NCBI GenBank assembly: GCA_009773645.1 | Contig: WSYB01000017.1 | Coordinates: 1-64,000 of the forward strand | Origin: Geobacteraceae bacterium | GTDB lineage: Bacteria > Desulfobacterota > Desulfuromonadia > Geobacterales > Geobacteraceae | Length of the DNA stretch: 64,000 bases | Direction: 5' to 3' | Shown here: positions 9,796 through 45,139 of the stretch, piece after piece | How positions within the stretch are numbered: the stretch's first letter is position 1 | Layout: every line of letters begins with the position of its first letter | The notes under the pieces: model-generated | What the model was told of the DNA's origin: nothing | Databases searched by the model: none | What the model saw: only the letters and a program-made list of their open reading frames with translations | Program-made: the position numbers and the translations under genes

Positions 9796-9965
9796 AAACC
9801 TAGATAAAGCATTTGAACACGGATCAAATCTGATTTATACGGATTTTCACGGATTTATACGATTAAGAGCATTAACCCAATAGTTTGAGGCATTACGCCG
9901 GGATACGTCTTTGGTTTATCCGTGGTAATCCGTGTAAATCCGTGTCCAAATGCCTTTTTTAGGTT
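9796..9965. repeat. Dispersed palindromic repeat, family A (full copy)
   Basis: Left end AAACCTAG..CATTTGAACACGGAT, right end ATCCGTGTCCAAATG..TTAGGTT. Internal copies of ACGGATTT and AATCCGTG make a long imperfect hairpin. The block at 32279-32425 is nearly identical over the left arm. Confidence 0.8.
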
Positions 9966-26868: not shown

Positions 26869-27810
26869 TTATACGGCAAAGGCCAGCCACAACCCCACCA
26901 TCAGCGCCTCCGCCCCGTACATGAGCCGCACCGCGCCGCGATACGCCTTGAGGGAAAGGGGCTTCAAAGGGTCGCCTATGGTCGGCTTCTCCACCGGCAC
27001 GCCGAAGTAGCTGCTGGTTCCGCCGAGCTTGACTCCGAGCGCACCGGCAACGGCCGCCTCGGGGACGCCGCTGTTGGGTGAAGAGTGGTTGCGCCCGTCA
27101 CGGGCCATGATCTGGAGCGCATTCGGTCCGGAAAGCCACACAAGCGGGGCCGCCAGCGTCATCAGGAGACCGGTGATCCGTGCGGGAATGAAGTTCACCA
27201 CGTCGTCGAAACGGGCCGAGGCCCAGCCGAAGCGACGATAGCGGTCATTCTTGTAGCCGACCATGGAGTCAAGGGTATTGACCGCCTTGTAGGCAAGCCC
27301 CAAGGCCGGTCCACCGAGCATCAGGTAAAAGAGCGGCGCAATCACGCCGTCAGAGGTGTTCTCAGCCACGGTCTCCACCAAGGCCCGCCAGATCTCAGGC
27401 TCTTCCAGGCCGGCGGTATCCCGGCCGACGATGCAGGAGAGCCAAAGACGCGCCTCCTCCAAATCTCCCCGCGCAAGGGCATCCGCAACTTTTTTTGATT
27501 CCGTATGGAGGGAACGGGCTGCCAGACAGGTATAGGAAATATATGCGCCGGCCGCCGATCCCGCATAGGGGTGTATGGCGCACGCTACCTTCAGGAGGGC
27601 AAAGGCGGCAAGCCACGTCAATCCGGCGGTGATGAGCAGAAGGAGGATTCCGCCGGTCCTTTCATCCCGTGCCAATCGCCGCAGCCACTTCTCCAGAAAC
27701 GAGATGAGCCGCCCGATGCCGACCACCGGATGGGGCAGCCAGCGCGGGTCGCCGAGGAGAAGGTCAAGGCTGATGGCGGCTATCAGCACATAAGGATCTA
27801 TCAGGTTCAA
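26869..27810 (-). CDS. cbiB: Adenosylcobinamide-phosphate synthase
   Basis: 313 residues, integral membrane protein with about four to five hydrophobic segments. It starts at TTG 27810, overlapping the stop of the preceding fusion gene (TTGA). Family motifs are LDLLLGDPRWLPHPVVGIGRLI, ENTSDGVIAPLFY, YKAVNTLDSMVGYKN and the C-terminal GDPLKPLS. It joins aminopropanol phosphate to adenosylcobyric acid. CobD, which makes that substrate, is encoded immediately downstream. Confidence 0.93.
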   Translation of the reverse strand: MNLIDPYVLIAAISLDLLLGDPRWLPHPVVGIGRLISFLEKWLRRLARDERTGGILLLLITAGLTWLAAFALLKVACAIHPYAGSAAGAYISYTCLAARSLHTESKKVADALARGDLEEARLWLSCIVGRDTAGLEEPEIWRALVETVAENTSDGVIAPLFYLMLGGPALGLAYKAVNTLDSMVGYKNDRYRRFGWASARFDDVVNFIPARITGLLMTLAAPLVWLSGPNALQIMARDGRNHSSPNSGVPEAAVAGALGVKLGGTSSYFGVPVEKPTIGDPLKPLSLKAYRGAVRLMYGAEALMVGLWLAFAV

Positions 27811-30182
27811 CCTGTTATCCCGCAGATCGTGAATATCCGCTCCATATCCAGATGATTCTCCAGATGCTGCGCCAGCAGATCGAAGGGGTCTTCCCGGGGA
27901 ACCGCCTGCGTAACGGTCGATATCCCTTTGGACCTTCTGATCCGGTTGAGGAAGGCGGAACGGAATCCCTCATTGTCGAATATGCCGTGGAGATACGTGC
28001 CGAACACCCTCCCGTCGGAAGAGACCGCGCCGTCCGTCACCTCCACGGCGCTCCCGGAACGGCGGGATATCCGGGCAAATGGCCGTGCCCCCCGGCCGAG
28101 GGAGGTCTCCCCCATGTGGATCTCATACCCGGTCATCTCCTTTCCCCAACCGGGGGCGACCAGGAGCCCCGCCTCCAGTAGGCTTGCCGCTACCAGATGG
28201 GTTTCCTTGTCGGGGAGCATGACCGTTGCCACATCGAGCAGCCCCAGCCCCTGTGCCGTCTTGATCGCCGATTCCACGCCGTCGGGGTCCATCACCAGGT
28301 TCCCCATCATCTGATACCCGCCGCAGATCCCCACGACCGGCCCGGAAAAGACCTTTATCGCGTCAAACAGCCCCCGCTCCATGAGAAAGTAGAGGTCGGC
28401 AGTGGTCGATTTGCTCCCCGGCAGAATCAGGACGTCGAGGCCGGCCAGCTCCCCCGGCCCCCCCACATAGGAGAGCGCCACGTCGGGTTCCGCCTCCAGC
28501 GGGTCAAAATCGGTATAGTTGGAAATGCGCGGCAGCTTCACCACCCCAATGGAGATTTTTCCGCCGTTACGCTTCCCGCTTCCCGCTTCCCGCTTCCCGC
28601 GTTTTTCCAGCGCCACGCTGTCCTCTTCGGGAATACGGAAACCGCTGAAGCAGGGAACCACCCCCAGCACGGGGACCCCGGTCCGCTTCTCCACGAACTC
28701 TATGCCGGGCCCAAGGAGCGAGGCATCCCCACGGAACTTGTTGATGATGATCCCCTTGACCCGTGCCCGCTCAAACGGCTCCAACAGCTCCATGGTCCCG
28801 ACAATCTGGGCGAAGACCCCACCGCGGTCGATATCCGCGACCAGGATCACCGGGGAGCCGGCCATCTCCGCCACCTTGAGGTTTGCTATGTCATGGGCTT
28901 TCAGGTTGATCTCGGCGATGCTTCCCGCCCCCTCGATGACGATGAAGTCAAAGCGGGACGCAAGCCGTTCGAAGCTCTCCCTTACCTTGACGAAGGCCTC
29001 CGGTTTGAAGGCGTTGTACTCCTTCACCGTCATGTTGCGGACGACTTTCCCCTGGACGATGACCTGACTGCCGGTGTCGGAGTTGGGCTTCAGCAGTACC
29101 GGGTTCATGTCCGTATGGGAAGGGATGCCGCAGGCTTCCGCTTGCACCGCCTGGGCCCGGCCGATTTCCCTCCCCTCCGGGGTGACGGCCGAGTTCAGGG
29201 CCATGTTCTGGGACTTGAAGGGGGCCACTGAAATGCCCCGGTTTTTCAGGATGCGGCAGAACCCGGAGGTCAATACCGATTTCCCCACATCGGAGGCGGT
29301 GCCGCAGAACATCAGGGCTTTGCCCTGATGCGTGAGGGGTGAGGGGTGAGGGGTGAGGGGTAAAGATCGCTTTTTCTCCTCACTCCTCACTCCTAACTCC
29401 TCACTCCGTGCGGCGTAGCCGCGCGGGGTTACGAGACGCCCTTTCCCGTTCACGAAGGTGGCGGAGTTGCCGATGATGACGATGGAAAACATATCGACCG
29501 GATGGGAAAGCATGTCGGCCAAGGTGGTGACTACCTTTTCCTCCCCTTTGCGGCATGCGTTCCGGACAATCCCGACCGGCGTCGTCGCGGAACGTACCGA
29601 AAGCATGATGCGTTGTGCGTCTTCTAGGTGTCGCACCCGTCCCTTGCTCCTGGGATTGTAGAGCGCGACCACAAAATCGGCCGCTGCCGCCGCCGCCAGA
29701 CGTCGTTCAATGGCATCCCATGGAGTGAGGAGATCGGAAAGGGAGATCACCGCAAAGTCGTGCATGAGCGGCGCCCCCAGCACCGAAGCGGCGGCCTGCA
29801 CCGCCGAGACGCCGGGGACGACAATGATATCGACGCTCTGTAGGGGCACCCCCATGTGGGTGCCCACATCGGGGCAGGCACGGGGGCCTGCCCCCGCCAG
29901 TTCCAGCACCAGCCCGGCCATGCCGTAGACCCCGGCATCGCCGCTGGAGATGAGGGCAACCGTCTTTCCGGACGAAGCGATTCCCAGGGCTTCGCGGCAG
30001 CGATCCACCTCTTTCGTCATCCCGGACGAGACGACCTCTTTCCCGGCCAGAAGGGGCTTGATCAGCTCCAGGTAGGTCTTGTAGCCGACGACCACCTGGG
30101 CCGACTCGATCGCCTCCCGCGCTTCGAACGTCATATGTTTCAGGTCGCCGGGACCGATACCGACGACGTACAGCTTCGACAT
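27807..30182 (-). CDS. Fusion: precorrin-3B C17-methyltransferase (CbiH/CobJ) + cobyric acid synthase (CbiP/CobQ)
   Basis: 791 residues from ATG 30182. Residues 1 to about 255 form a tetrapyrrole methylase with GIGPGDLKHMT, ALISSGDAGVYGMAG and VALYNPRSKGR: CbiH/CobJ, ring contraction and C17 methylation. A linker of about 30 residues (ARSEELGVRSEEKK.., LPLTPHPSPLTHQ) is encoded by a tandem repeat at 29331-29407. From about residue 289 the protein is CbiP/CobQ: MFCGTASDVGKSVLTSGF (P-loop), the glutaminase Cys in VGICGGYQMMG and the His in YLHGIFDN. CbiP amidates the corrin side chains. Two further repeat-derived segments lie inside: about residues 97-116 in the CbiH part and about 527-537 in the CbiP part. 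The two proteins are normally separate, so the fusion may result from read-through of an intergenic repeat. Confidence 0.9.
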   Translation of the reverse strand: MSKLYVVGIGPGDLKHMTFEAREAIESAQVVVGYKTYLELIKPLLAGKEVVSSGMTKEVDRCREALGIASSGKTVALISSGDAGVYGMAGLVLELAGAGPRACPDVGTHMGVPLQSVDIIVVPGVSAVQAAASVLGAPLMHDFAVISLSDLLTPWDAIERRLAAAAAADFVVALYNPRSKGRVRHLEDAQRIMLSVRSATTPVGIVRNACRKGEEKVVTTLADMLSHPVDMFSIVIIGNSATFVNGKGRLVTPRGYAARSEELGVRSEEKKRSLPLTPHPSPLTHQGKALMFCGTASDVGKSVLTSGFCRILKNRGISVAPFKSQNMALNSAVTPEGREIGRAQAVQAEACGIPSHTDMNPVLLKPNSDTGSQVIVQGKVVRNMTVKEYNAFKPEAFVKVRESFERLASRFDFIVIEGAGSIAEINLKAHDIANLKVAEMAGSPVILVADIDRGGVFAQIVGTMELLEPFERARVKGIIINKFRGDASLLGPGIEFVEKRTGVPVLGVVPCFSGFRIPEEDSVALEKRGKREAGSGKRNGGKISIGVVKLPRISNYTDFDPLEAEPDVALSYVGGPGELAGLDVLILPGSKSTTADLYFLMERGLFDAIKVFSGPVVGICGGYQMMGNLVMDPDGVESAIKTAQGLGLLDVATVMLPDKETHLVAASLLEAGLLVAPGWGKEMTGYEIHMGETSLGRGARPFARISRRSGSAVEVTDGAVSSDGRVFGTYLHGIFDNEGFRSAFLNRIRRSKGISTVTQAVPREDPFDLLAQHLENHLDMERIFTICGITG
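28570..28601. repeat. In-frame heptamer repeat (CGCTTCC)n inside the cbiP part
   Basis: Four tandem CGCTTCC units; on the coding strand they read KREAGSGKR. Member of the GGGAAGC family (family D). Confidence 0.85.
29331..29407. repeat. GTGAGGG / CTCACTC tandem inverted repeat encoding the CbiH-CbiP linker
   Basis: Four GTGAGGG units are followed by CTCCTCACTCCTCACTCC units in inverted sense. On the minus strand it is read in frame and gives the Ser/Glu- and Pro/Leu-rich linker (family E). Confidence 0.85.
29840..29896. repeat. GTAGGGGCA..-type palindromic repeat inside the cbiH part (family C)
   Basis: It contains GTAGGGGCACCCCCATGTGG and GGGCAGGC..GCCTGCCCC arms. Translated as GAGPRACPDVGTHMGVPL in the minus-strand frame. 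Confidence 0.75.
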
Positions 30183-30197
30183 CAATAACCTCTTAAA

Positions 30198-31261: not shown

Positions 31262-31460
31262 CACCACGGAGACATAGAGACACGGAGACCCCCCTTGAAC
31301 CGCGAAGACGCTAAGAACGCAAAGAAATTCAAACCCCAAAGGGGAGACGGATCAAGTCTGATGTACACGGATTTTTAAAGGATCAAAAACCTACGATTAA
31401 TTAGTTTTTGGTTTATCCGTTTTTTCCGTGTTAATCCGTGTCCCGTTCTTGTTTTAAGGT
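31262..31460. repeat. Composite repeat: family B half followed by family A copy
   Basis: 31262-31320 has CACCACGGAGACATAGAGAC-type units (family B, one-sided). 31341-31460 is a family A palindrome with ACACGGATTT and CCGTGTTAATCCGTGTCCC arms. It fills the cbiF-cbiG junction. Confidence 0.75.
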
Positions 31461-32261: not shown

Positions 32262-32425
32262 AGAGAAAACCTTTTTTTAACCAGAAAAAGCATTTTGAAC
32301 ACGGATCAAATCTGATTTATACGGATTTTCACGGATTTAAACCACTGAGAGCATTAACCCAAAAGGTTGTGGTAGTAACATCCGCTTTTTCCGTGTTAAT
32401 CCGTGTCCAATTCGTTTTTAGGTTT
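32240..32425. repeat. Composite repeat: family B fragment and full family A copy
   Basis: 32240-32268 is CCACAGAGGACACGGAG..CACAGAG (family B), overlapping the 5' end of cbiF. 32279-32425 is a family A copy nearly identical in its left arm to 9796-9880. Confidence 0.8.
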
Positions 32426-34432: not shown

Positions 34433-35596
34433 TTACCCGAAATATAGCATTTCTCCATGATACCCTGCCAGTAAAACCTTTACCTCCAAACCGGGTGCCG
34501 CCCTTTCGGCAAACTCCCTTGCTCTTTCGCAGACCAGGGCAATCAGGCCGGCATCGTTGCCGGAGGCCTCCAGTATCTGGCGGGCGGTGTTCGCTTCGCG
34601 GACGGGAAGCGGGAAGCGGGAAGCGGGAAGCGCAAAACCACACCATTCGGCGAGCATCCGCAGATCCAGCTCCGACGAGGAGACGTGAGTCTGCTCGTGA
34701 CCGCAGGCGATCTTGAGTAGCTTGGCGAACTGACCGGCGAGGACAACGCGCCGCACCTCCTTGCGTGCACAAGCGCGGAGGGCGTAGCCCACGTGGTCCC
34801 CCATCATCACGAACGCCTCTTCTTTGAGCTTTTCCCCGCTTCCCGAATCCCGCTTCCCGGATCCCGCTTCCCGGTTCCCGAAAAACTTCTGCGCCACCAG
34901 TTCGCTCGTCCTGCCGGTTGAGAAGACGATGGTCTCAGCGCCACACGCACGAGCCACGTCGATGGCGGCATCTATGGTGTCGGTCCAGGCCTTGGCCGAA
35001 ATCGGCTTCACGATGCCGGTGGTGCCGAGAATGGAAAGGCCGCCGATGATGCCGAGACGGGCGTTCAGGGTCTTTTTTGCCAGCTCTTCGCCGTTGGGAA
35101 TTGAGAGGGTCACGTGAAGCGGGACGCGGGAAGCGAGACGCGGGAAAACCTCTGCAATCGCCTCCGCGATCATCCGGCGCGGCACCGGATTGATGGCCCA
35201 TTGACCGACCGGAACCGCCAGCCCAGGCTTGGTCACTTTACCAATTCCGATACCACCTTCGATGCCTATACGCGATTCATCCTCCCCCTCGCCCTCTCCC
35301 CTGGCGGGAGAGGGTCGGGGTGAGGGGGTAATCTCCGCCAGCATAACCCGCGCATGAATCTCCGCCCCGTTGGTCACGTCCGGATCGTCCCCCGCGTCCT
35401 TGACCACGTAACAGGCGGCAAACGTTCCCGTGAACTCCTGACCGTGCAGGTGGAAACGGGCCGTCTCGCCCATGGGGAGGGTTATTTCCACCTCCTCCGT
35501 CAGCCGCTGCTCCCGCAGCATGAGTGCAGCCCCCTTTGCCGCCGCAGCAGCGCAGGCACCCGTGGTGTAGCCGTGTCGCAGCTCGCGTTTCGACAT
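34433..35596 (-). CDS. cbiD: Cobalt-precorrin-5B C1-methyltransferase with repeat-encoded insertions
   Basis: 387 residues. The family start is RHGYTTGACAAAAAKGAALML, then IPNGEELAKKTLNARLGIIGG, GTTGIVKPIS and FAKLLKIACGHEQTH. CbiD methylates C1 in the anaerobic pathway. Three segments do not look like CbiD and coincide with low-complexity repeats: residues 91-108 (PSPRPSPARGEGEGEDES), about 240-257 (GNREAGSGKRDSGSGEKL) and about 321-333 (FALPASRFPLPVR). A fourth repeat underlies residues 150-158. All keep the frame and fall between recognisable conserved blocks, so the protein may still fold. Otherwise full length; the stop is 49 bp from cbiET. Confidence 0.9.
   Translation of the reverse strand: MSKRELRHGYTTGACAAAAAKGAALMLREQRLTEEVEITLPMGETARFHLHGQEFTGTFAACYVVKDAGDDPDVTNGAEIHARVMLAEITPSPRPSPARGEGEGEDESRIGIEGGIGIGKVTKPGLAVPVGQWAINPVPRRMIAEAIAEVFPRLASRVPLHVTLSIPNGEELAKKTLNARLGIIGGLSILGTTGIVKPISAKAWTDTIDAAIDVARACGAETIVFSTGRTSELVAQKFFGNREAGSGKRDSGSGEKLKEEAFVMMGDHVGYALRACARKEVRRVVLAGQFAKLLKIACGHEQTHVSSSELDLRMLAEWCGFALPASRFPLPVREANTARQILEASGNDAGLIALVCERAREFAERAAPGLEVKVLLAGYHGEMLYFG
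34602..34632. repeat. In-frame (GGGAAGC)4 in cbiD
   Basis: Family D heptamer; read on the minus strand as LPASRFPLP. Confidence 0.85.
34834..34880. repeat. In-frame family D heptamer block in cbiD
   Basis: Six to seven units of the type CCCGCTT / CCCGAAT / CCCGGAT / CCCGGTT, read as GNREAGSGKRDSGSG. Confidence 0.85.
35115..35147. repeat. In-frame short family D-like block in cbiD
   Basis: Units GAAGCGGGACGCGGGAAGCG and AGACGCGGGAA, read as FPRLASRVPL. Shortest and least certain of the four. Confidence 0.55.
35283..35330. repeat. In-frame palindromic repeat (CCCTCTCCC..GGGAGAGGG) in cbiD
   Basis: Inverted repeat CCCTCTCCCCTGGCGGGAGA; read as PSPRPSPARGEGEGE. A widespread intergenic repeat type in many proteobacteria. 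Confidence 0.85.
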
Positions 35597-37403: not shown

Positions 37404-37532
37404 GTCAAAAACCTTTGATAGGACACGGATTTACACGGAAAAAACGGATCAAACAACAAAACAAAAAACACCTGATTTTGATTTTAAATCCGCCTCTTCC
37501 GTGTTCATCCGTGTCCCGTTAAGGATTTTGAT
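37404..37532. repeat. Dispersed palindromic repeat, family A
   Basis: AAAACCTTTGATAGGACACGG at left, CCGTGTCCCGTTAAGGATTTT at right, with ACACGGAAAAAACGG and CCGCCTCTTCCGTG inside. It fills the cbiO-cbiX junction. Confidence 0.8.
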
Positions 37533-38381
37533 CTACGGTCGATGTTTCATCGTCTCGATGATCTCCCGTCGCGCCTCGCCGATGGTGAGGGGAATTCGCT
37601 CGAACGGCAGGTTGTCCTCGTGCTTGAGCCTGTAAATGAGCTCTGCGATGTGTGGAAGGCGGAGCTTTACGTTCGCCATCTCCTCCGGGGCGCTGAAGAC
37701 CTCTTCCGGCACGCCGCCGCGCACGATCTTCCCCCCGCTGAGGATATGGAGGCGATGGAGAAAGAGCGGCACCAAGTCAACGCTGTGGGTGGCCATGACG
37801 ATGGTGACCCTCTCCTCCCGGTTTAGCCGCGTGAGCAGCTCCATCATCCGGTACTCCCCCATGGGGTCCAGCCCGGCGGTCGGCTCGTCGAGAAGGAGTA
37901 TCTCGTGTCCCATGGCGAGGAGCCCGGCAATGCAGACCCGTTTCTTCTGCCCGTAGCTGAGATTGTGAATGTTCTTCCCGCCGTACTCCGTCATCTCGAC
38001 ACTTTGCAAGGCCGTTTCGACCCGCTGCCTTACCTCCTCCTCGCCAAACCCCATGTTGCGCGGCCCGAAGGCCACGTCCTCGAAGACCGAGTGGGCAAAG
38101 AGCTGGTCGTCCGGATTCTGGAACACAAGCCCGACCTTGCGGTAGATGTCGCGGGAGTGAAGCCTGCGCACATCATCCCCGTCCAGCAGCACCTCCCCCG
38201 CATAATCCTTGATAAGACCGTCCATGATCTTGAGTAGCGTCGTCTTTCCGGAGCCGTTGGAGCCGAGGATGCCACAGAAGTCGCCTCGCGCCACGTCGAG
38301 GCGGATGTCCGACAGCGCTGCCGTGCCGTCGGGGTATGTGAAGCTGTCGATATGTACGGAAAGTCGCACAGTCAAAATCAA
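37533..38381 (-). CDS. cbiO: Cobalt ECF transporter ATPase
   Basis: 282 residues. Walker A GSNGSGKTT, signature LSYGQKKR, Walker B ILLLDEPTAGLDP and H-loop MATHSVDL. With CbiM(N) and CbiQ it forms the energy-coupling-factor cobalt importer. The start is not settled: TTG 38381, TTG 38375 and GTG 38369 all lie at the edge of a family A repeat. Confidence 0.93.
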   Translation of the reverse strand: MILTVRLSVHIDSFTYPDGTAALSDIRLDVARGDFCGILGSNGSGKTTLLKIMDGLIKDYAGEVLLDGDDVRRLHSRDIYRKVGLVFQNPDDQLFAHSVFEDVAFGPRNMGFGEEEVRQRVETALQSVEMTEYGGKNIHNLSYGQKKRVCIAGLLAMGHEILLLDEPTAGLDPMGEYRMMELLTRLNREERVTIVMATHSVDLVPLFLHRLHILSGGKIVRGGVPEEVFSAPEEMANVKLRLPHIAELIYRLKHEDNLPFERIPLTIGEARREIIETMKHRP

Positions 38382-38670
38382 AACCTTTAATGGGACACGG
38401 ATTTACACGGAAAATGCGGATTGAATCTCGTAACCAATCCAAGACATAATCATTTACTCATATCCTATTACCTTTTTCTATCGTTATCTAATTCTCGAGG
38501 AATCCATAGCCAAGTTTGTTGTAAACTGTGTAAAAACAACATATCACTGCATCTGTAAGCTCTGAATGTTTCAACTTATCCATACAGGTTCACTCTTTAC
38601 TTAGGTTTTGGTGTAATCCGCCTTTTCCGTGCCTTTTCCGTGATAATCCGTGTCCCATTAATGATTCTTG
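38374..38670. repeat. Family A repeat split by about 170 bp of unrelated AT-rich DNA
   Basis: The left arm 38374-38430 (CTTTAATGGGACACGGATTTA) and the right arm 38605-38670 (AATCCGTGTCCCATTAATGA) are inverted copies. The stretch between them is AT-rich, without an ORF and unlike the other copies. It occupies the 292-bp cbiQ-cbiO gap, which contains no gene. Confidence 0.75.
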
Positions 38671-39448: not shown

Positions 39449-39508
39449 GGGTGGCGCCGTGCGCACCACCTGATTCATTGATACGGTGCGTTCCACGCAC
39501 CCTACCTG
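39449..39508. repeat. Small GGTGCG..CGCACC hairpin repeat
   Basis: Two related hairpins, GTGGCGCCGTGCGCACCAC and GGTGCGTTCCACGCACC, lie in the cbiM-cbiQ junction. A type of intergenic repeat seen widely. Confidence 0.6.
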
Positions 39509-40611
39509 GCTTTTTTTTCACTGACTAACAGCCGCCAGTAGTATCCCGCTGCGAAACCGCCCACCACACCCGCCAGGAGGAATGCAAACAGCAACAAGTC
39601 CCCCTCTCCCGGATCGATCAGAGGTTTGCGGGCCTGCCGGCCGTGCTCCCTGGCTATCTTTTCCACCACTGACTCGTCCACGCCGCGCCACGCTTCCGAG
39701 GAGAGTGAAGTGTGAGGAGTGAGGAGAAAAAGTGAAAAAATCAGGAACAAAGAAACGATAATCGGTGTAGCGCTTCCCGGTTCCCGGTTCCCGGTTCCCG
39801 GTTTCACCACCCGCATCTTCACAAGCAGGTCCGGCCGTTTCTTATGGAGCAGCACCACCATTCCCGCAGTCATGGCTCCCTCCAGCACCCCCATGGGCAG
39901 TTGGGTGGGAATGAATGCAATGAGTATCTTCCAAAACAGTGGGAGGAACGGCGCATCTCCCCGGATGCCCGAGGCAAGCGCCACAGAGGTCGTCACATAG
40001 GTGGCCCAGTCGGCAAGAAGGCCGGCTGCAAATCCTGCCACTGCCAGATTGGCGCCCAGCTTGCGGAGCAGCCGGAAGGTGAACCAGCCGGCAAAGGAGC
40101 CCGCCACCCCCATGGAGACGATGTCCGCGCCAAGGGTGGAGAGGCCGCCGTGGGCAAGGAAGAGTGCCTGGATGAGGAGCGCCACCGCCGCGATGACAAT
40201 GCTCACCAGCGGACCGACGAGGATCGCGGCGATGCCGGTGCCGCATGGGTGAGAGCAGGTCCCGGCAGTCGGCACGGGAATCGGCATGCAGGAGATGATG
40301 AAGACCACCGCCGCCATGAGCCCGACAAGGGGCTTAAAAGAGAGGTCGTCCTTTGCCAGTGTGTCCAACCGCTTGAGTCCGAGCGCCACGAACGGCACAG
40401 CCGCCGCGAACCAGAGGGTCGCCCAGTTGAAGGGAAGTATCCCCTCGGAGATATGCATGGCGTGGGCGGGGGTGGATTTTAGAAGCGAAAAGGCGCCACA
40501 GAGACACAGAGACACAGAGAAATTCCACAGAGATTTCTTTGTGGAGAAACCGGAATGCTGTGGTTGCCGGATTCCGTCCATTTCTTTTAAAACCCTCTCT
40601 GATTGGTACAT
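39502..40611 (-). CDS. cbiM: Cobalt ECF transporter substrate-binding protein, CbiM fused to a CbiN/PDGLE-like C-terminus
   Basis: Up to 369 residues. The CbiM core starts at Met52 (40458): MHISEGILPFNWATLWF; its first Met-His normally becomes the mature N-terminus and binds cobalt after signal-peptide removal. MPIPVPTAGTCSHPCGTG and PTQLPMGVLEGAMTAG follow. The C-terminal region (about 300-369) with one membrane helix (FAFLLAGVVGGFAAGYYW) resembles CbiN/PDGLE domains. Residues 31-45 (FSVSLCLCGAFSLLK) are encoded by a family B repeat in place of an ordinary signal peptide. Residues 269-306 also contain two repeat-encoded stretches. The true start is uncertain (40611, 40581 or 40458). Confidence 0.88.
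   Translation of the reverse strand: MYQSERVLKEMDGIRQPQHSGFSTKKSLWNFSVSLCLCGAFSLLKSTPAHAMHISEGILPFNWATLWFAAAVPFVALGLKRLDTLAKDDLSFKPLVGLMAAVVFIISCMPIPVPTAGTCSHPCGTGIAAILVGPLVSIVIAAVALLIQALFLAHGGLSTLGADIVSMGVAGSFAGWFTFRLLRKLGANLAVAGFAAGLLADWATYVTTSVALASGIRGDAPFLPLFWKILIAFIPTQLPMGVLEGAMTAGMVVLLHKKRPDLLVKMRVVKPGTGNREPGSATPIIVSLFLIFSLFLLTPHTSLSSEAWRGVDESVVEKIAREHGRQARKPLIDPGEGDLLLFAFLLAGVVGGFAAGYYWRLLVSEKKAR
39700..39726. repeat. GTGAGGA repeat inside cbiM(N)
   Basis: GAAGTGTGAGGAGTGAGGAG; read as LLTPHTSLSS. Related to the cbiH-cbiP linker repeat (family E). Confidence 0.7.
39771..39802. repeat. In-frame (CCCGGTT)n heptamer inside cbiM(N)
   Basis: Family D units; read as KPGTGNREPGSA between the CbiM and CbiN-like parts. 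Confidence 0.85.
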
Positions 40612-40656
40612 TCTGTTCTCGCCTATTCTTCTTTGTCTCTGTGTCTCTGTGGCAGA
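40495..40656. repeat. Dispersed palindromic repeat, family B, overlapping the 5' end of cbiM
   Basis: Left arm GCCACAGAGACACAGAGAC, right arm GTCTCTGTGTCTCTGTGGC: near-perfect inverted ends about 120 bp apart. The left arm is translated as part of the CbiM N-terminus. Confidence 0.85.
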
Positions 40657-43460: not shown

Positions 43461-43612
43461 GCCACGGAGACACAGAGGAAAGGCAAAAGCAGAAATACAA
43501 GCAAAACGCAAAGTGCAAAAAAATCTGAAAATCGAGTATGCCCCGAAAAGCAGCATTCTTGCATTCATAAGCTGTTCTCTGTGTTAACTCCGTGTCTCTG
43601 TGCCTCTGTGGC
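43461..43612. repeat. Dispersed palindromic repeat, family B
   Basis: GCCACGGAGACACAGAGG at left, CTCTGTGCCTCTGTGGC at right; fills the cobC-cbiA junction. Confidence 0.85.
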
Positions 43613-45055: not shown

Positions 45056-45139
45056 CTCGTGATTCGGGAATCGGGATTCGAGATTCGGAAAAACCATAGC
45101 CGGTTCCCGGTTCCCGCTTCCCGCTTCCCTGATCCCTGC
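45056..45139. repeat. Family D heptamer repeats between cobT and cobS
   Basis: GATTCGGGAATCGGGATTCG units are followed by inverted CCCGGTTCCCGCTTCCCGC units. Intergenic form of the repeats found in cbiD, cbiP and cbiM. Confidence 0.8.

Follow-up and report, generated by a model that had tools for sequence, protein, structure and literature searches.

The window, as we call the whole stretch of 64,000 nucleotides analysed here, encodes the cobalt-precorrin-5B (C1)-methyltransferase CbiD in a complete open frame of 387 amino acids on the minus strand (cbiD, 34433-35596). The protein was matched by the profiles TIGR00312 (361 bits) and PF01888 (297 bits), and cbiD matches were found in 54 of the 58 genomes searched, the window's genome counted. 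The AlphaFold2 model of this CbiD has a mean pLDDT of 89.1. In a structure search its sole match with E < 0.001 was the CbiD of A. fulgidus (1sr8, E 2e-18, TM 0.36-0.48), which is also the sole good match by sequence.

Four segments of this gene, here called loops A to D, coincide with DNA repeats, and all four are read in frame with the conserved blocks of CbiD between them, just as a preliminary description of this DNA had claimed. Loop A (35281-35325, residues ~91-106) is a palindrome without assigned strand (inverted repeat I11). Its core, at 35292-35314, is CCCTCTCCC...GGGAGAGGG and the encoded peptide is PSPRPSPARGEGEGE. The three other segments were assigned to the minus strand and consist of heptamers. 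Loop B (35116-35146, residues ~151-161), covered by rows of tandem repeats, has imperfect, degenerate units of the GCTTCCC/GCGTCCC type on the coding strand. Loop C (34835-34880, residues 239-254) is an array of the coding-strand units GGGAAGC, GGGATCC and GGGATTC, with the peptide NREAGSGKRDSGSG. Loop D (34603-34632, residues 322-332) is a perfect array in which the coding strand repeats GCTTCCC, the reverse complement of GGGAAGC, 4.3 times, and it encodes ALPASRFPLPV. Whichever of the three frames is read, a heptamer array encodes one and the same cyclic heptapeptide: arrays of GGGAAGC give GKREAGS in any frame and arrays of GCTTCCC give ASRFPLP. The latter is visible in loop D, and the former, with variants, in loop C. 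The tested units of the GGGA type have no stop in any of the six frames. Hence, genes are permissive to such arrays.

Loops A and C are low-confidence parts of the AlphaFold2 model. The ten-residue blocks that contain loop A have pLDDT values of 52 and 60 and those of loop C of 61 and 77, with 79 for loop B and 80 and 87 for loop D. The preliminary description had suggested modelling the fold to see whether the segments lie in surface loops. Judging from low model confidence and from alignment gaps, the repeat loops probably lie at the protein surface, with less certainty for B and D. Low confidence in A and C would also be expected if selection on the protein favoured flexible Gly/Ser/Pro loops and the DNA repeat were a by-product. 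Such selection cannot make a 7-base period, and most arrays of this kind lie outside genes (see below), which leaves this explanation with hardly any credibility.

Heptamer arrays are also found in other cobalamin genes of the window. The CobJ-CobQ fusion gene (27807-30185, minus strand; Pfam TP_methylase, CbiA/AAA_26 and GATase_3) carries three of them, all on the minus strand. Two lie in the linker, the first at 29376-29407 (GGAGTGA type on the coding strand) and the second, inverted relative to the first, at 29332-29361 (CCCCTCA type). The third, in the CobQ domain (28570-28600), repeats GGGAAGC 4.4 times when read along the coding strand. The cbiM frame (39502-40611, PF01891) contains an array of the GGGAACC type on the minus strand (39774-39803) with the peptide KPGTGNREPGS, and the region from cobS to cobT contains intergenic arrays of several units (45057-45130, no strand assigned). 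Other repeats occur in this part of the window. Families built on the motifs ATCCGTGTT and ACACGGATTTACACGGA lie in or near the cobalamin cluster (9812-9958, 31415-31454, 32294-32419, 37408-37527 and 38380-38421), and 8-base repeats of the CACAGAGA or CTCTGTG type lie near a ThiC-family gene (40497-40520, 40630-40651 and 43588-43610).

The GGGAAGC array pattern (CGGGAAGCGGGAAGCGGGA, one mismatch allowed) had 139 matches in the window's genome, overlapping within arrays, and the reversed control pattern had a single one, a difference much too large to be due to chance. We sampled 400 kb of this genome as 20 stretches at fixed offsets (L061-L080), on contigs that were known from GGGAAGC matches or that were the window's own, which may raise the density of arrays. 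The sample contained 49 arrays of period 7, and 0, 0, 3, 1, 3, 0, 1, 1, 0, 5 and 1 arrays of periods 4, 5, 6, 8, 9, 10, 11, 12, 13, 14 and 15, respectively. Four other genomes, at 100 kb each, gave 2 (G020), 1 (G014), 0 (G001) and 1 (G009) period-7 arrays. The high density therefore belongs to the window's genome and is not general in the order. The 49 arrays had 23 different commonest units, 52% of which contain GAA/TTC (26% among random genomic 7-mers). We looked for a purine-strand bias of the heptamer units and found no excess. Together, sample and window provide 55 arrays (called with a custom scorer at thresholds 9 to 13): 34 intergenic, 12 at gene edges and 9 inside genes. Arrays are depleted in genes, given that 86% of the sample is coding according to our custom codon-score gene finder. 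Five of the nine genic arrays lie in the cobalamin genes of the window, which is itself not a random choice.

To place the loops of CbiD among its relatives, we used a Geobacterales set, i.e., the best 30 of the 54 CbiD-positive genomes, and a further set of 75 CbiD from 80 named loci, some of them Geobacteraceae records (the five loci dropped were identical to one present, shorter than 280 aa or in reverse orientation). The 30 Geobacterales genes contain 25 period-7 arrays in 16 genes, and every one of the 25 lies within loops B, C or D. Eight other periods (4, 5, 6, 8-11 and 13) together gave two arrays. Period 12 was found in two genes and period 14, a multiple, in five. The units found in these loops include GGGACTC, GGGATCG, GGGATCC, GGGACCG, TCACCCC, AGGCGCG, TGCCCTG and GTCTCAC. 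Over all 105 CbiD there were 50 period-7 arrays in 24 genes, 12 arrays of period 14, and at most eight of any other period. By zone, the 50 arrays fell in A (4), B (13), C (15), D (8) and elsewhere (10). Of the last ten, L172 contributed one and the Nitrospirota-type records L123, L138, L145 and L149 the other nine. L149, from a Nitrospirota MAG, has nine period-7 arrays within its cbiD frame. Several more were counted over L123, L138 and L145, and in these four records arrays also occur outside loops A-D. The orientation of arrays appears largely conserved per loop. Some of them may thus be one ancestral array whose units later turned over.

The same analysis of CobJ-CobQ orthologues (30 of 58 genomes) revealed 47 period-7 arrays in 22 of the 30, all at the three spots described above, i.e., both linker positions and the CobQ-domain position. 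Period 14, again a multiple, accounted for 17 arrays, and no other period for more than one. The single control gene, the better conserved CobT (30 of 56), had no period-7 array in its 30 genes.

A period of seven, which is not a multiple of three, and the roughly four perfect units of loop D raise the possibility of phase variation, in which 7-base slippage would shift the cbiD frame and toggle B12 synthesis. We consider this very improbable. The arrays are short and most lie outside genes, and the frames of all 30 Geobacterales cbiD (best 30 of 54) are open across the loops, L023 being cut at its start. Split cbiD matches occurred in four genomes outside the 30. The G052 gene is a single open frame whose loop B is long, and that of G044 is cut by the contig end. 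The cbiD of G057 and G028 do have frame breaks, yet we found no heptamer array in the broken stretches. By eye, the translation of the G044 gene (L268) shows two palindrome-like peptides in loop C, PPPLTGGGRGVGE and LTLPRQGGG, and, before residue 156, a tandem repeat of greater length that encodes DLPSTSLR.

The lengths of the loops allow insertion to be told from replacement. We counted loop B with its anchors included and measured loop C over 232-260. Loop C has 13-14 aa in 70 of the 75 further CbiD and is longer in 28 of the 30 Geobacterales (best 30 of 54), i.e., it was lengthened. The span of loop D is 28 residues in 26 of the 30 and in 64 of the 75. That of loop B is 25 residues in 22 of the 30 and in 27 of the 75, and array-free relatives mostly have a loop B and a loop D as long as those of the window's CbiD. 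These two loops being of usual length, the arrays in them replace sequence in the window's CbiD. The preliminary description had proposed several independent in-frame insertions, expected to appear as gaps in alignments with relatives. This holds for A and C, which vary in length among relatives, and fails for B and D, which are not extra sequence. Independent insertion of all four segments is thereby ruled out at B and D. The presence of the same segments, conserved, in repeat-free orthologues had been named as evidence against insertion; the loop stretch is indeed present in such orthologues, yet its sequence is not conserved.

Changes in length tend to follow the heptamer. Among the 30 Geobacterales, they amount to 7 or 14 residues, i.e., three or six heptamers, in six of the eight genes with a changed loop B and in three of the four with a changed loop D. 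Five of the six cases of a 32-residue loop B occur in one genus, which implies few events, fewer than genes. Loop C differs by exactly seven residues in two same-genus pairs (L013/L003 and L011/L008), the shorter loop containing one unit in L011 (relative to L008) and a near copy in L013 (relative to L003).

The palindrome of loop A is an element separate from the heptamers and, unlike GGGAAGC, it is family-wide. It has 17 copies in the window's genome and is present in 42 of 48 family genomes with up to 350 copies, for 0-3 matches of the reversed control. The 105 CbiD genes contain 19 hairpins with arms of at least 9, for 6.85 expected over the whole set from codon shuffling. Loop A accounts for eight of the 19, spread over seven genes; their arm sequences are of several kinds, and each of the three frames is represented. 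L001 and L002 have the CCCTCTCCC core in common but in two different reading frames, an argument for separate insertions. These data fit, for loop A, the view that mobile palindromes of the Rickettsia type were inserted in frame, independently for each segment. As an explanation of all segments this view is unlikely. Loops B and D are not longer than usual, the heptamer arrays differ in unit and copy number, and inspection by eye of 10 arrays of one unit showed no common flank beyond the heptamers. Moreover, none of nine Y1 transposase (PF01797) loci of 2.2-3.4 kb each carries the palindrome, and two of the nine have a single half-site. We rejected mobilisation by a RAYT on this ground. Nor did we see by eye a constant GTAG/CGTC tag beside the palindrome in 15 of its 17 copies with 32-base flanks. 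A further kind of palindrome, of the GTAGGGGC type, occurs in two Nitrospirota-type CbiD, L126 (loop A) and L145 (loop D).

The repeat units partly follow the genome. None of 47 other genomes of the family has more than one match of the GGGAAGC pattern, against the 139 of the window's genome. GGGACTC has 34 matches in G007, where loop C is made of this unit, and one in the window's genome. G014 has 12 GGGACTC matches although its loop C is GGGATCC, and GGGATCG showed no genome specificity (6 matches in the window's genome, 8 in G006, 5 in G020 and 5 in G025). Reversed control patterns are frequent in some genomes, e.g., 8+11 matches in G069 for the GGGAAGC search and 18+20 in G061 for the GGGATCG search, and these are probably other heptamer units. 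In genus g13 (G061, G030, G064 and G032) the reversed GGGATCG control, with up to 18+20 matches, corresponds to GCTAGGG units, which points to another heptamer repertoire. We also compared the 6-mers of CbiD arrays with those of CobJ-CobQ arrays in the 15 genomes with arrays in both genes. The sharing was 0.303 within genomes and 0.093 between genomes, a difference reached by 26 of 20,000 permutations, with base composition and phylogeny uncorrected. Four of the 15 genomes (G014, G003, G024 and G008) had no array 6-mer common to the two genes.

The two linker arrays of CobJ-CobQ face each other as inverted repeats and co-vary across the 30 species. The mean duplex energy was -50.7 kcal/mol within species and -41.3 kcal/mol between species, a difference attained in none of 20,000 permutations. 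The result was again 0/20,000 after centring for composition, where a control pair of segments gave 18,089/20,000, and still 0/20,000 when six array-free rows (of the eight without arrays) were removed. Pairing was poor in some species: L215 ranked 30 of 30, L234 27 and L216 25. The co-variation of the arms may come from selection of the hairpin or from copying across it. The loops of CbiD paired weakly, with 410 (B-C), 1208 (C-D), 17,201 (B-D) and 7,335 (A-C) of 20,000 permutations, for 2,075 and 4,576 in control pairs (29 of the 30 rows, the truncated L023 being dropped). We set aside a conserved long-range RNA pairing of these loops, given its weakness relative to the control pairs.

The co-variation of the linker arms is an argument that arrays and hairpins are kept for their action as DNA or RNA, e.g., as sites of regulators or hairpins in mRNA. 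Regulatory roles were proposed by Aklujkar et al. for the Geobacter elements, in the part of their account available (PMC2700814). In addition, exact partners of 10 nt or more lay close to an array in inverted orientation in 15 of 55 cases (null 6.6%) and in direct orientation in 9 of 55 (null 8.5%). We nevertheless find such selection improbable. The excess at 12 nt is small (7 of 55, null 5.0%), none of the nine arrays inside genes has an inverted 10-nt partner, and the CbiD loops and the linkers of L215, L234 and L216 pair poorly. Copying across a hairpin would leave the same co-variation of adjacent inverted arrays. Inverted neighbours are not a rule for heptamer arrays either, as close pairs were inverted in 7 of 14 cases.

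We favour an explanation in which arrays change by slippage and by switching of template from one array to another, and selection then keeps what the reading frame and the loops tolerate. To this explanation we give somewhat better than even chances. It starts from what the data show: arrays of period 7 are present and reuse the same loops, their units vary from genome to genome and are in part common to two genes of one genome, and 21-base steps separate the members of two pairs of relatives. The loops of CbiD host two classes of repeats, tandem heptamers in B, C and D and a family-wide palindrome inserted in A. The heptamer arrays would lengthen and shorten by 7-base slippage, and other arrays of the same genome would serve to rewrite them, through short-patch template switching or conversion, such that a genome would tend to impose its own units. 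Purifying selection would retain the changes that preserve the frame, either steps of three units, which make 21 bases and 7 residues, or replacements of unchanged length, and would restrict them to places that the fold tolerates. As a consequence, orthologues would have arrays in the same loops again and again, with different units. With one genome per species, no event of conversion or switching was caught in the act. That the process is slippage plus template switching is our inference, and the arrays themselves probably have no cellular function.

A more tentative extension, in our view possible rather than probable, is that in some genomes of the order a sequence-templated process rewrites dispersed heptamer arrays in trans, those in enzyme loops included, and that adjacent inverted arrays are rewritten jointly via hairpins. 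If so, orthologous loops would carry the seven-base signature of their genome, and the loops of CbiD and CobJ-CobQ would be natural recorders of rewriting in trans. The arrays in the CbiD of Nitrospirota would then suggest that such rewriting is not confined to one phylum.

Repeat DNA in working enzymes is usually shown for one gene of one species, and here it is found in the same loops of many related species, with a unit that follows the genome partly rather than the gene. These loops look like places where repeat DNA is tolerated, each genome having its own version. They provide a natural map of the parts of CbiD and CobJ-CobQ that accept foreign peptides. They also pose a testable question: by what means does one unit come to form short tandem arrays all over a bacterial genome, and what keeps these arrays alike?

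The palindrome of loop A measures about 45 bases and Rickettsia palindromic elements about 100-150 bases; we liken them by type, not by consensus sequence. The resemblance to these elements noted in the preliminary description applies to loop A and does not extend to the heptamers of loops B-D, which are tandem arrays and not palindromes. In-frame REPs and Rickettsia palindromic elements (Ogata 2002) are treated together in PMC3733652. Like the Rickettsia elements treated there, loop A is a dispersed palindrome read in frame inside a gene. According to the portion of that text available, REP elements of the GTAG/CGTC kind are likewise short dispersed palindromes, some of them inside genes. Unlike REP/RAYT systems, the palindrome of loop A showed no constant GTAG/CGTC tag (15 copies, by eye) and was absent from the Y1 loci (0 of 9).

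The preliminary description knew of no account for Geobacter-like bacteria. This was wrong, since at least two reports exist, which we cite from the excerpts available. In G. metallireducens, tandem heptanucleotide elements (Gmet_H4##) were described between and within genes in 2009 (PMC2700814), and in G. bemidjiensis a multicopy family was described within genes, in frame, in 2010 (PMC2996986). The latter resembles our arrays as in-frame, multicopy and genic, a likeness of description; it may or may not consist of heptamers. Like the elements of G. metallireducens, the arrays of the window have about four tandem 7-base units (4.3 at 34603-34632 and 4.4 at 28570-28600) and are multicopy, between and within genes. 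They differ in sequence: the unit is GGGACCG and the consensus GGACCGG in that report, and GGGAAGC in the window's cbiD. The GGGACCG unit is found in relatives, e.g., L005. The reuse of the same loops by orthologues with other units is absent from the accessible part of the G. metallireducens account (PMC2700814). In the literature searched, supplements and most subscription papers aside, we found no description of loop reuse across species or of heptamers in CbiD. Also undescribed in the literature found are units that partly follow the genome and are common to genes, the 21-base steps and the co-varying arms.

Heptameric repeats are known further afield, again from what the available text of each source covers. 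Those of Xanthomonas (GGGNATC) and Nostoc (GGGGA(C/T)T), for which slippage is quoted as a hypothesis, resemble ours as dispersed G-rich heptamer arrays with some inverted pairs, and differ from them in their units and in being under-represented on the coding strand within genes (PMC4692102). Beggiatoaceae have TAACTGA heptamers (PMC4679880). The heptamer arrays in CbiD are a real case of this known kind of repeat.
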